Below are positions 4,775 through 36,760 of a DNA stretch of 64,000 bases, piece by piece. Location of the stretch: assembly GCF_017813395.1 (NCBI RefSeq), contig NZ_JAGIZB010000010.1, positions 62,001-126,000 of the forward strand, read 5' to 3'. Below the pieces are notes generated by a model. It was not told where the DNA came from. It did not search any database and worked only from the letters and a program-made list of their open reading frames with translations. The position numbers and the translations under genes were made by a program. This stretch comes from Pararoseomonas baculiformis (GTDB taxonomy: Bacteria; Pseudomonadota; Alphaproteobacteria; Acetobacterales; Acetobacteraceae). The number at the start of each line of letters is the position of its first letter. The first letter of the stretch is position 1.

Positions 4775-5623
4775 ATGGGACAGGCGCCGCGCCGCTTCCG
4801 CTTCACCCCGCGGCGCCGCCCGCGGCTGCATGGCCTGTCCTTCAACCGGCTGTTGCCGAACCTGCTGACGATGATCGGCCTTTGCGCCGGCATGACCGCG
4901 ATCCGCTTCGCGATCGAGGATCGCTGGGAGCCGGCGGTGACCCTGATCGTCGTCGCGGCCTTCATCGACGGGCTGGACGGGCGGCTGGCCCGGCTTCTGC
5001 AGGCCACGTCGCGCTTCGGGGCGGAGTTCGACAGCCTGTCGGACTTCCTCTGCTTCGGCGTGGCGCCGGCCTTCATCCTCTATCTCTGGACGCTGCATGA
5101 CGCGCGAGGGCTGGGCTTCATCCCCTGCCTTCTCTTCGCCGCCTGCATGGCGCTGCGCCTTGCGCGCTTCAACGCCGCGATCGATGCGCCGCTGACGCCG
5201 GGCGGCGTGCCGCGTCCGGCCGGCTTCTTCACGGGCGTGCCCGCGCCGGCAGGGGCCGGCTTGGCCCTGTTCCCGATCTTCACGGCCCTCACCCTCGATG
5301 GCTGGGGCCTGCACGGCTTGGCCGGTGCCATGCGGCACCCAGTCTTCTCGGCCGTGCTGCTGGTGGGGATCGCGGCGCTGCTGGTGAGCACGCTGCCCAC
5401 CTGGTCGTTCAAGAAGGTGAAGATCCCGCGCGAAGCGGTGCTGCCGCTGATGCTGGGCGCCGCCGCCTATGCCGCGCTGCTCGTGGCGGAGCCCTGGGCC
5501 GCGCTGGCCGCCGCCGGGCTCCTCTATATGGGGATGATCCCGTTCTCCCTTCACTCCTACCGCCAGAAGCTGGCAGCGGCGCGGCTGGCGATGGACCCCG
5601 AGGAAAGCTCCGCGGCGACCTGA
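4775..5623 (+). CDS. pssA: CDP-diacylglycerol-serine O-phosphatidyltransferase
   Basis: The protein has 282 residues and makes phosphatidylserine from CDP-diacylglycerol and serine. The CDP-alcohol phosphotransferase signature DG-x2-AR-x8-G-x3-D-x3-D is intact (DGRLAR ... FGAEFDSLSD, around residues 68-92). The rest is mostly hydrophobic helices, consistent with an integral membrane enzyme. It follows psd by 6 bases, giving the two-step PE pathway in one operon. The N-terminus is basic (RRFRFTPRRRPR), as is common in this family. Confidence 0.95.
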   Translation: MGQAPRRFRFTPRRRPRLHGLSFNRLLPNLLTMIGLCAGMTAIRFAIEDRWEPAVTLIVVAAFIDGLDGRLARLLQATSRFGAEFDSLSDFLCFGVAPAFILYLWTLHDARGLGFIPCLLFAACMALRLARFNAAIDAPLTPGGVPRPAGFFTGVPAPAGAGLALFPIFTALTLDGWGLHGLAGAMRHPVFSAVLLVGIAALLVSTLPTWSFKKVKIPREAVLPLMLGAAAYAALLVAEPWAALAAAGLLYMGMIPFSLHSYRQKLAAARLAMDPEESSAAT

Positions 5624-33916: not shown

Positions 33917-34564
33917 ATGCGATCCGCCCTCCTGCCAGCCACCGCCCTTCTGCTCGGCCTGGCTGGCCCCGCCCTGGCCGCGCCCGGCTTCGCGACCGGC
34001 AATGTGAACCTGCGCGCCGGGCCCGGCACGAACTACCCGCAGGTCACCGTGGTGCCCGCCGGCGCCCAGGTGGAGATCTTCGGCTGCCTGCAGGGCTACA
34101 GCTGGTGCGATGTCGGCTTCGGCCATATCCGGGGCTGGGTCTCCTCGAACTTCCTGCAATACCTCTATGAGGAGCGGCGCGTGCCGCTGCCGCAATATGC
34201 GCCCCAGGCCGGCGTGCCGGTGGTGACCTTCCAGTTCGGCAATTACTGGCGGGACCATTACCGCGGCCGGTCCTGGTATGCGGAGCGGGACCGCTGGGGC
34301 GGGCCACCCCCGCCCCGCGCCGCCTTCCGCGATCCGCCGCCCCCGGCCTGGCGCGATGGCCCGCCTGGGCGAGGACCGGAATGGCGGGATGGCCGCGCGG
34401 ACCGCCGCGCCGAGTGGCGTGACGAAAGGCGCGAGCGCCGGGAGGAATGGCGGCAGGAGCGGCGCGAACGCCGGGACGACTGGCGTGACCGCCGGGAGGA
34501 CTGGCGCGATGGCCGGGGCGGGCCGGACGACCGGGGCCCGCCGGGGCGTGGCCGGCGGGACTAA
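33917..34564 (+). CDS. Exported SH3-domain protein with Arg/Asp/Trp-rich tail
   Basis: The protein has 215 residues. A signal peptide ends at LAAPG, then one bacterial SH3 domain (about residues 25-90): ATGNVNLRAGPGTNYPQVTVVPAGAQVEIFGCLQGYSWCDVGF...GWVSSNFL. The last 85 residues are low complexity: Pro-rich, then many copies of a charged W-R-D/E-R motif (EWRDERRERREEW, DWRDRRED). SH3b domains bind peptidoglycan peptides, so the tail may extend through the wall. Similar RDWR tails occur in other Acetobacteraceae SH3 proteins. Followed by a terminator at 34631-34654. Confidence 0.85.
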   Translation: MRSALLPATALLLGLAGPALAAPGFATGNVNLRAGPGTNYPQVTVVPAGAQVEIFGCLQGYSWCDVGFGHIRGWVSSNFLQYLYEERRVPLPQYAPQAGVPVVTFQFGNYWRDHYRGRSWYAERDRWGGPPPPRAAFRDPPPPAWRDGPPGRGPEWRDGRADRRAEWRDERRERREEWRQERRERRDDWRDRREDWRDGRGGPDDRGPPGRGRRD

Positions 34565-34630
34565 ACGGCCGAAGGCGAGACGCGGCGTCTCATGTCAACC
34601 CAGATGCTCAATGGCAAAGCAGGAGTGGTT

Positions 34631-34654
34631 GCACCTAGCTGATTAGGTGCTTTT
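34631..34654 (+). terminator. Terminator of the SH3 gene
   Basis: Seven-bp arms GCACCTA (34631-34637) and TAGGTGC (34644-34650) with a 6-base loop are followed by TTTT on the plus strand, 66 bases after the SH3 stop. The stem overlaps the stop codon of the convergent gene (34643-34645). Confidence 0.6.
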
Positions 34655-35872
34655 GCCTGTTTCTACCTGTGGCGGCGCCTCCGATTCGGCGCGAGTTACG
34701 ATTAGGGGATTGATTCTGGGAATGAACCCGCGTGCATACCATCGTTCGAAAGCCAGTTCATGATAAAGTGGAGGAACAACATACCGGTCATAGATGTGTC
34801 GGAAATCGGCCCCTTCAAACAGGTCAAAACCGAAGGCGCGGCACGGAGCCTTCAGTATTACACCAAAGAGGACCTGAGCAAAGAGGCCACTCGTCATTAA
34901 CGGATAACATACATCCTTCATAATTCCAAGGATGTTTGAAGGAAGTTCATGTACGCGTTCAATATCTGTGCCAAGCGTAGACGAGGTCTCCGGCGGTAAC
35001 TTTCCCATATAAATACATTGTAGATGAGGAGCGTTTTGCAGCTGTGTTTTTAGCCACGCCGAACCGCCCTCCTTCGAGATTTGACGGCCACTGAAAACGA
35101 CGATGTCGGTTCGATCTCCGGTATGTTCCTTCATTCGTTGCAAGTTAGGGAAATTCAATCGGATCACTACGTCGTGCTTGTCTATGGCGTCTCCTGCTTT
35201 GAATTCTTTCAGCGAGGGGCCGCTTCCAACAATCGCTACGGCATTCGCTTTGAGTGTATGAGATGTAAGGTTAAGGAATGCCCGATTCCTCCGCGCTTCA
35301 CTTTCGTTCTGGAAGCTTGTTTCTGATTTGAAAGAGATGAGCGCCAGGAGCACCGACCGATTCAACGCCTCATTAAAGCGGGCTAAGAACGGAGAAGGAT
35401 CAAAGGTGTGGTCGTTTTCGTGGCGTCTGGCGGCAAGTTGGGCGCACAAACTAAGTCGCTGGAGCACGCTAAGGTGACAGCTATCAGTCTCCGGGTCGCC
35501 ATCCATGATTTGCTTTCTAAATGGCTCTGGGTGCGATAAAATGCAACGAATCAGCGTGCATAGATCCCCGCCTCTAGCTTTGGAGGTGCTTGTTGCGTGG
35601 AGATCTCGGAAGTGTCGCTCAGCTCTTGTTATTTCGCCCAGTCGCATAAGATGATGTGCCAGTAGATGATGTGCAGTTCGGCCTGCAGATCCACTGACGA
35701 TCAAGTTTTCAATCGCTTCAACAGTTTTCTCTGGACAGCGCTTTAACAGGATCTCTATCGTTCTTCGCAATCCCACTCCAGCATGATCTGGGTGATCCTT
35801 TTCCATCATGGCACATAACTCCGCCTCCGTAAATGCATCATTGGAGCGGTCTGGCTGTAGGGCGGTCTGCAT
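34643..35872 (-). CDS. Putative sialyltransferase-like glycosyltransferase (GT29 type)
   Basis: The protein has 409 residues. An N-terminal helical region (1-200, repeat-like) precedes a region matching GT29. Motif L-like at about 211-245: VAIVGSGPSLKEF, then AIDKHDVVIRLNFP and GDRTDIVVF. Motif S-like at about 323-350: YPLMTSGLFAQVLFG ... AFGFD. A His-x4-Glu (H371, E376 in YHELAFE) equals the very-short motif. In this family the donor is CMP-sialic acid, acting on glycans; donor and acceptor here are not known. Base composition is far lower in GC than all neighbours and codons are AT-rich, indicating recent transfer. GTG 35875 is an alternative start. GT42 is the other candidate family. Confidence 0.6.
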   Translation of the reverse strand: MQTALQPDRSNDAFTEAELCAMMEKDHPDHAGVGLRRTIEILLKRCPEKTVEAIENLIVSGSAGRTAHHLLAHHLMRLGEITRAERHFRDLHATSTSKARGGDLCTLIRCILSHPEPFRKQIMDGDPETDSCHLSVLQRLSLCAQLAARRHENDHTFDPSPFLARFNEALNRSVLLALISFKSETSFQNESEARRNRAFLNLTSHTLKANAVAIVGSGPSLKEFKAGDAIDKHDVVIRLNFPNLQRMKEHTGDRTDIVVFSGRQISKEGGSAWLKTQLQNAPHLQCIYMGKLPPETSSTLGTDIERVHELPSNILGIMKDVCYPLMTSGLFAQVLFGVILKAPCRAFGFDLFEGADFRHIYDRYVVPPLYHELAFERWYARGFIPRINPLIVTRAESEAPPQVETGKST

Positions 35873-35875
35873 CAC

Positions 35876-36041
35876 GATTCTACCTTATCGTTTTAATCTC
35901 GGGAGAGTTTTTATTACATTTTTGTTTTCGTTAAACCCCCACTGAAAAAATCATTATCTCCAAAACTGATGGCTTTGCACGTTGTCTGGCCGAGAAATGG
36001 TTGGCATACTGCTTTGCTTCCGTTCTCTCTGATGGTAAGCC
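35876..36041 (-). other. AT-rich leader between LysE and GT29 genes
   Basis: A 166-base AT-rich stretch with runs such as TTTTTATTACATTTTTG. It holds no gene that I can see. It probably carries the promoter of the GT29-like gene, but no clean -35/-10 pair at correct spacing is visible. Confidence 0.4.
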
Positions 36042-36614
36042 TCAACGGAAAAGGGGACCAATCACAGCGGTCAATGCGAAAGCGCCTATGATCGTGGCGC
36101 CGATGCGGGGCACCCATCCAGCGCGGGCGACAGTGCTCGCCACGCTTCCCAGAAGTGCGCCAAGGGCGATCCAGCTAATAGCTACGCACGTCAGAAGCAG
36201 AAGAAATCCGAGGAGGAAAGGCCACCAGGGAGGGGCGCCAAACGGAATCACTCCAAGGGCAAGCACCAAGGATTTGGGGTTCAGCAGGGTGGTAATGAAG
36301 ACTTGGCGTGCCGTGACCGGTGCTGCGGCATCTATGGCGCCGTTCCGCCACAACATTGCGGCCAGCCAGATTAGATAAAGGCCCACAGTCACTCTCAGCC
36401 CGATTAGGACCGTCGGGGCCGAGGCGATCACTGGTCCAATCACCAAGCCAATCACGAGAATTGAGATGAGGTATCCCGCGGCCTCTGCCGGGACCAACGG
36501 GGCAGCCCTTCGGAACCCCATAGCTCCGCCCGCCGTGGCCAGCAGCGTGTTGGTCGGGCCTGGCGTGCCCAGGATCAGCAGCACCGTCAGGGTGAAGAGG
36601 ACGGGGTCCTGCAT
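36042..36614 (-). CDS. LysE/RhtB family exporter
   Basis: The protein has 190 residues with about five membrane helices. The start FTLTVLLILGTPGPTNTLLATAGGAMGFRRA carries the family TPGP motif, and NPKSLVLALGVIPF is the mid-protein marker. LysE-type proteins export amino acids or amino-acid derivatives. Composition is moderately lower in GC than the genome, so it may belong to the transferred segment. It lies upstream of the GT29-like gene on the same strand but a 169-base gap makes co-transcription uncertain. Confidence 0.85.
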   Translation of the reverse strand: MQDPVLFTLTVLLILGTPGPTNTLLATAGGAMGFRRAAPLVPAEAAGYLISILVIGLVIGPVIASAPTVLIGLRVTVGLYLIWLAAMLWRNGAIDAAAPVTARQVFITTLLNPKSLVLALGVIPFGAPPWWPFLLGFLLLLTCVAISWIALGALLGSVASTVARAGWVPRIGATIIGAFALTAVIGPLFR

Positions 36615-36760
36615 GGCCGTTCCGAAAGACGATGGAGAGCCGGGCACAGCTCCCCTGGAGTGCGACCCAGCCGGCCAGCTTCTAGCGCCGGCAGGGGGCA
36701 GGCGCCAAGCAGCGGGCCCGGCGCCTTTTCCGGGCCGCACCCCATCCCCATGTCTTCGTC

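Follow-up and report, generated by a model that had tools for sequence, protein, structure and literature searches.

The gene and its insertion site

The window analysed here is a 64,000-nucleotide stretch of Pararoseomonas baculiformis DNA, on the minus strand of which positions 34643-35872 encode a GT29-family glycosyltransferase of 409 aa (P0001). The open reading frame, at the coordinates given in the sequence-only reading, is intact, with 409 codons and a stop; it starts at an ATG at 35872 (a GTG at 35875 is an alternative start) with a Shine-Dalgarno-like AAGG 7-10 nt upstream. A sequence scan for a transmembrane segment gave no signal. To the left lies a gene for a bacterial SH3-domain protein (33917-34564, plus strand; PF08239) and to the right a gene for a LysE-type translocator (36042-36635, minus strand), assigned by synteny and by a weak PF01810 match (2e-5) that falls just below the cut-off. 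Both are conserved neighbours, the wider surroundings are of a housekeeping kind, and no glycan genes lie alongside. The earlier observation that the window holds no gene for CMP-sialate synthesis holds up: no donor genes adjoin P0001, and the cytidylyltransferases of the genome are on other contigs.

The gene stands apart from its surroundings in composition, with a GC content of 47-51% (about 49%) against 70% in the genome and a GC3 of 0.50 against 0.86-0.94 in most neighbours. The flanks are syntenic in seven congeneric genomes, where the gap between the SH3 and LysE genes is empty; the SH3 gene adjoins the LysE gene in six of them, and in one a GNAT gene replaces it. P0001 is without a match in any congener, and the only one with any GT29 (G014) carries a distant protein that sits elsewhere in the tree. 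Given this foreign GC and GC3 and the empty site in all seven congeners, the gene is a recent, horizontally acquired single-gene insertion, the sole occupant of a low-GC segment whose outer bounds are 34565-36041. A search around the insert for mobile-element ends or target duplications returned just short two-copy repeats of chance quality, and no close match to P0001 was found in plasmids, phages or viral contigs. Mobile surface-glycan genes usually lie in low-GC DNA; the GT29 genes of two other loci (L103 and L107) are likewise intact in such DNA.

Membership in family GT29

A search of P0001 against Pfam-A returned PF00777 (GT29) at E 7e-11 and 42.5 bits, above the curated threshold of 23, and no other family up to E 10, GT42 included. 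The match spans residues 208-269 alone, which is the region of sialylmotif L, and as a single phmmer query P0001 found no significant match among the GT29 chains of the PDB (best E 0.017). Because this single-protein match to the solved structures was weak, relatives were gathered from whole genomes, from phage and viral contigs and from one scan of 85,000 species, and a family profile was used instead. The resulting domain alignment has 26 members, P0001 and 25 bacterial and phage relatives, all 26 of which match PF00777, and it carries the homology of P0001 beyond the Pfam span, through motifs S and VS. Searched against the PDB, the profile matched eight distinct sequences, all of them vertebrate GT29 sialyltransferases (E 1.3e-24, for ST3Gal1, to 1e-18). 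These matches are mostly whole-domain, including S and VS, and the printed alignments cover L, S, III and VS.

The L-like motif, the S-like motif and the H371/E376 pair claimed at first sight are all found at those residues. Sialylmotif L (residues 211-257; 35102-35242, minus strand) runs from VAIVGSGPSLKEFKAGDAIDKHDVVIRLN to GDRTDI and comprises VAIVGSGPSLKEF from residue 212, IDKHDVVIRLN at 230-240 and GDRTD at 252-256. Within it G216, G227, I230, R238, N240 and G252 are invariant in the 26-member alignment, and D231 is nearly invariant in alignments. Sialylmotif S (residues 323-352; 34817-34906, minus strand), YPLMTSGLFAQVLFGVILKAPCRAFGFDLF, contains YPLMTSGLFAQVLFG at 323-337 and, with its YPLMTSGLF...AFGFDLF, aligns with the PSTG...YGFDFF of bacterial GT29, with G329 and F349 invariant. 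The stretch FRHIY (residues 357-361; 34790-34804, minus strand) aligns with the HYY/HYF of relatives and ST3Gal1 and resembles the H-Y-Y of motif III; its column is not invariant and it is the weakest of the four motifs. Sialylmotif VS (residues 370-377; 34742-34765, minus strand) contains H371 and E376, both invariant, and in the family profile its HxxxxE aligns with VHDGDFE of ST3Gal1; by alignment H371 falls in the column of the catalytic histidine. Motif L of P0001 has no cysteine, and the vertebrate-type disulphide between L and S is therefore missing; this disulphide is not family-wide, since bacterial GT29 lack it (PMC5811610). P0001 is thus a member of CAZy family GT29, the placement first proposed for it and now backed by sequence, profile and predicted fold, and "sialyltransferase", as a name for its activity, is unproven.

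Predicted fold and the N-terminal region

An AlphaFold2 model of the whole protein is of moderate quality (pLDDT 68) and has GT29 structures as its top matches; the glycosyltransferase domain modelled alone reaches pLDDT 77 and pTM 0.78. The top matches of the domain model are GT29 chains, at Z 13.5-15.7 and with an rmsd of 2.8-3.5 across 178-198 residues; the model matches all four solved GT29 subfamilies and is predicted to adopt the GT-A variant 2 fold. The overlay on both families thus places it closest to GT29, ahead of the GT42 enzymes CstI and CstII (Z about 10-12). An archaeal HPPK scores 10.7, a Maf glycosyltransferase matches weakly at 8.8, and the remaining Rossmann-like folds stay below 8.

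Residues 1-200 (35273-35872, minus strand) form a helical region, predicted to be TPR-like at about residues 28-100 (AlphaFold2 model m37c7c446bbe5, pLDDT mostly 45-80). Its matches to TPR structures, those of OGT and MamA among them, are weak at Z 7-8, a level common among helical repeats. No Pfam TPR family is reached in P0001, in agreement with the original remark that this region has no recognised domain, and in L107 the TPR match is sub-threshold. The model thus hints faintly at a TPR, and we claim no known TPR family for it. The region is conserved in the nearest relative, and many bacterial GT29 have long helical N-termini; L033 and L041 are short GT29s that have none.

Distribution and relatives

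PF00777 is carried by 13 of 395 genomes in the order, 2 of 385 in the class and 7 of 398 in the phylum. The scan of 85,000 species added 22 GT29 loci, with titles that include Lachnospiraceae, Spirochaetes, Elusimicrobia, Verrucomicrobia, Lentisphaeria, Gastranaerophilales, Helicobacter and several Alphaproteobacteria, and the genome and contig searches together place the family in several bacterial phyla and in phages. The sequence-only reading's description of GT29 as mainly eukaryotic is hence only partly right: besides these occurrences, bacterial GT29, mostly alphaproteobacterial and represented by 23 bacterial sequences, were described in 2018 and proposed as the source of all eukaryotic sialyltransferases (PMC5811610). 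The presence of the family in bacteria is accordingly not new. New here are the insertion at an empty site, the absence of NeuB and the clade in which cytidylyltransferases are fused to GT29.

The nearest relative of P0001 is L110 (genome G1108), with 34% identity over residues 26-387 (E 1e-46). In a tree of 39 domains the two group together (support 97/90) within a clade of nine proteins, all from the source organism's own bacterial family (support 99/98). In a first tree, built without same-family members, P0001 formed a long branch of its own close to phage sequences; the tree with those members places it in their clade, and the proposed phage proximity was dropped. Elsewhere in the collection, near-identical GT29 genes occur in MAGs labelled Erysipelotrichaceae and Helicobacter (L050 and L051), reflecting either contamination of one MAG or a very recent transfer.

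Cytidylyltransferase fusions and GT29 gene neighbourhoods

Three members of the P0001 clade are natural fusions. In L108 (8986-10863, minus strand) and L099 (8900-10711, plus strand) a single open reading frame encodes an N-terminal NeuA-like cytidylyltransferase (PF02348) and a C-terminal GT29 domain (PF00777); L098 (7899-9728, plus strand) has the same arrangement with a degenerate cytidylyltransferase signature. In L100 (G989) the same cytidylyltransferase has a gene of its own, immediately upstream of GT29. That gene (4805-5550, minus strand) contains an in-frame TAG (YGA*IPG), from either pseudogenization or a sequencing error. The fused cytidylyltransferases are nearer to NeuA/PseF than to KdsB. 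P0001 has no such domain, having lost it or never possessed it. We found no description of natural cytidylyltransferase-GT29 fusions in the open-access literature, which was the scope of our search.

NeuB and/or NeuA also adjoin GT29 in Lachnospiraceae (L030), in Lentisphaeria (L042), in L106 (G932) and in phages (L004, L025, L027), and in L031 and L048 GT29 lies beside a cytidylyltransferase only; these NeuB/NeuA neighbourhoods tie the family to CMP-ulosonates. Several loci have features of their own. In the 484 kb jumbo phage LR756508.1 (L004, 2962-4528) a 210-residue GT29 gene is followed directly by a NeuB-family synthase, with two GDP-mannose-type sugar epimerase/dehydratase genes, judged by eye, nearby. 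On a viral contig (L025, 2309-6594) NeuB, NeuA and GT29 lie together in one row of genes and may form a phage cassette for nonulosonates. Other viral contigs encode GT8-GT29 fusion proteins, confirmed by Pfam in L026 (5344-6561) and recognised by eye in L028 (5341-6513) and L029 (5269-6516); the protein of L028 also occurs, unchanged, in an Elusimicrobia MAG (L036) and so probably comes from a prophage. A polysaccharide pyruvyl transferase (PF04230) is adjacent or close to GT29 at three loci (L035, 6582-7643; L038, 6669-7739; L101, 6599-7624) and is fused to it in L039 (6592-7449).

Possible donors in the source genome

The suggestion of a glycan carrying a nonulosonic acid whose donor is encoded elsewhere in the genome found no support in that form. 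In the 99.94% complete source genome (G000) no NeuB-family synthase was matched by a search that was positive in 9 of 14 control genomes, and the genome therefore has no nonulosonate synthesis by any known route, including that of CMP-Neu5Ac, the donor for sialyltransferase activity. Counting GT29 carriers alone, NeuB is absent in 13 of 20 near-complete proteobacterial genomes, among them two (G1016 and G989) of the three with a NeuA-like domain joined to GT29 or next to it, and it is absent in 10 of 22 other GT29-bearing genomes, many of which are MAGs.

The genome has two CMP-sugar enzymes, both on other contigs: KdsB, which synthesises CMP-Kdo, and a single orphan PseF-like cytidylyltransferase (L012/L017), which scores 54 bits against a PseF/NeuA equivalog cut-off of 206. 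The latter forms a trio with an HMGL-type aldolase and a HAD phosphatase (L017, 9385-12447, minus strand; G000:C44) that looks like a route to an uncharacterised CMP-ulosonate. As a donor locus specific to GT29 the trio was rejected, being conserved in five congeners (G004, G005, G006, G012 and G014), most of which have no GT29; it is still a possible donor source for P0001.

Comparison with characterised systems

P0001 has in common with the vertebrate enzymes (ST3Gal1, 2WNB; ST6GalNAc2, 6APJ; ST8SiaIII, 5BO9; ST6Gal1, 4JS1) the predicted GT-A variant fold, motifs L, S and VS, the putative catalytic histidine and, in part, motif III (PMC10225777). It differs from them in having neither a transmembrane anchor nor the motif L cysteine, in its identity of about 16-18%, in its extra 200-residue helical N-terminus and in residing in a cell without sialate synthesis. 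Its closest published counterparts are proteobacterial GT29 proteins from the same class of bacteria, described as keeping the sialylmotifs and lacking the disulphide cysteines; the part of that survey of 23 bacterial sequences available to us makes no mention of NeuA fusions, unlike what is seen in the P0001 clade (PMC5811610).

Three further systems are instructive. The plant GT29 RCKT1/MGP2 also functions in an organism without sialic acid and is a proposed CMP-Kdo transferase of RG-II (PMC11288761); unlike P0001, however, it is a Golgi enzyme with a pectin acceptor, and its donor role was proposed without in vitro activity (PMC11288761). FlmG of Caulobacter is, as P0001 would be, a cytosolic alphaproteobacterial transferase with a helical-repeat N-terminus before the glycosyltransferase domain, whereas that domain is GT-B and uses CMP-pseudaminate from a PseI (NeuB-type) pathway (PMC7591256). 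The GT42 enzymes CstII and CstI of Campylobacter have a related fold and use CMP-Neu5Ac, but their fold score is lower and they give no sequence match.

The likely activity of P0001 and its alternatives

We consider P0001 most likely, at a probability of roughly 0.7, to be a cytosolic, inverting GT29 transferase of a CMP-ulosonate, the donor probably being CMP-Kdo or the product of the resident trio. By analogy with its family, the enzyme would be a metal-independent GT-A variant in which motifs L and S bind a CMP-activated 3-deoxy-2-ulosonic acid and H371 of motif VS acts as the catalytic base, passing the acid sugar to an acceptor. The acceptor would be LPS, capsule or a protein glycan on the cytosolic side, and might be selected by the TPR-like N-terminus. 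Since NeuB is missing, we infer that the donor is not self-made Neu5Ac, legionaminate or pseudaminate, and what P0001 transfers, in a cell with no known sialic acid synthesis, is probably a related acid sugar, Kdo for example. The two donors are about equally likely. The presence of KdsB and the plant precedent (PMC11288761) support CMP-Kdo, and the NeuA/PseF-like nature of the clade's fused cytidylyltransferases argues against it; the trio for its part is spread across congeners independently of GT29. As the gene stands alone in housekeeping surroundings, no partner is proven.

The same fusions, together with the NeuB and NeuA found at GT29 loci elsewhere, lend something to the idea that P0001 is after all a true sialic, legionaminic or pseudaminic acid transferase, supplied not by internal synthesis but by a scavenged or external sugar that the PseF-like cytidylyltransferase activates. 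That enzyme, at 54 of the 206 bits needed, misses the PseF/NeuA cut-off and is clustered with an aldolase and a HAD phosphatase in an arrangement kept by congeners without GT29, and we regard this reading as unlikely. As a protein O-glycosyltransferase, P0001 might instead add an acid sugar in the cytosol to a flagellin or adhesin bound by the TPR-like N-terminus, as in FlmG (PMC7591256), a reading that overlaps with the preferred one. The modelled helices, with OGT and MamA TPRs among their matches, the long N-termini of many bacterial GT29 and the Maf neighbour all point that way; against it stand the weak TPR signal, with Z scores that helical repeats commonly reach and no Pfam match in P0001, the existence of short GT29s without an N-terminus, and a GT29 rather than a GT-B domain. 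The architecture of FlmG is accordingly not that of P0001, and we give the proposal a minor share of the probability.

It is also conceivable, if rather improbable, that the captured gene is decaying or substrate-less, non-functional in this host though the family is functional. Its foreign GC and GC3, its arrival as a single gene, its long end branch and the lack of NeuB and of adjoining glycan genes would suit such a fate, and a recently arrived gene of foreign composition may be poorly used. Yet all 409 codons are open, every catalytic motif is intact, and L103 and L107 carry intact GT29 genes in similarly low-GC DNA, the usual setting of mobile surface-glycan genes. A GT42 (CstII-like) or other Rossmann family misread as GT29, finally, is scarcely credible: the fold is common to both families, but GT29 leads by 3-4 Z units and by sequence, the Pfam list holds PF00777 only, and the profile search returned GT29 chains only. 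Membership in GT42 was rejected on these grounds.

Implications for the GT29 family

Returning to the preferred reading of P0001 as a CMP-ulosonate transferase, we tentatively extend it, with less than even confidence, to a bacterial GT29 branch that transfers a NeuB-independent acid sugar, which would be Kdo or else a new ulosonic acid assembled by an aldolase, a HAD phosphatase and a cytidylyltransferase; its relatives would activate and transfer the sugar in one polypeptide, and a single-gene mobile version would recently have been inserted here. We found no report in the open-access literature of the activity of any bacterial GT29. The P0001 clade offers soluble proteins of small size, and because some of them are natural fusions with a CMP-sugar synthetase, the donor can be tested in one construct. 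Should that donor not be sialic acid, the ancestor of GT29 may have transferred Kdo or another ulosonate, a possibility suggested by RCKT1, with sialylation taken up by the family only later.
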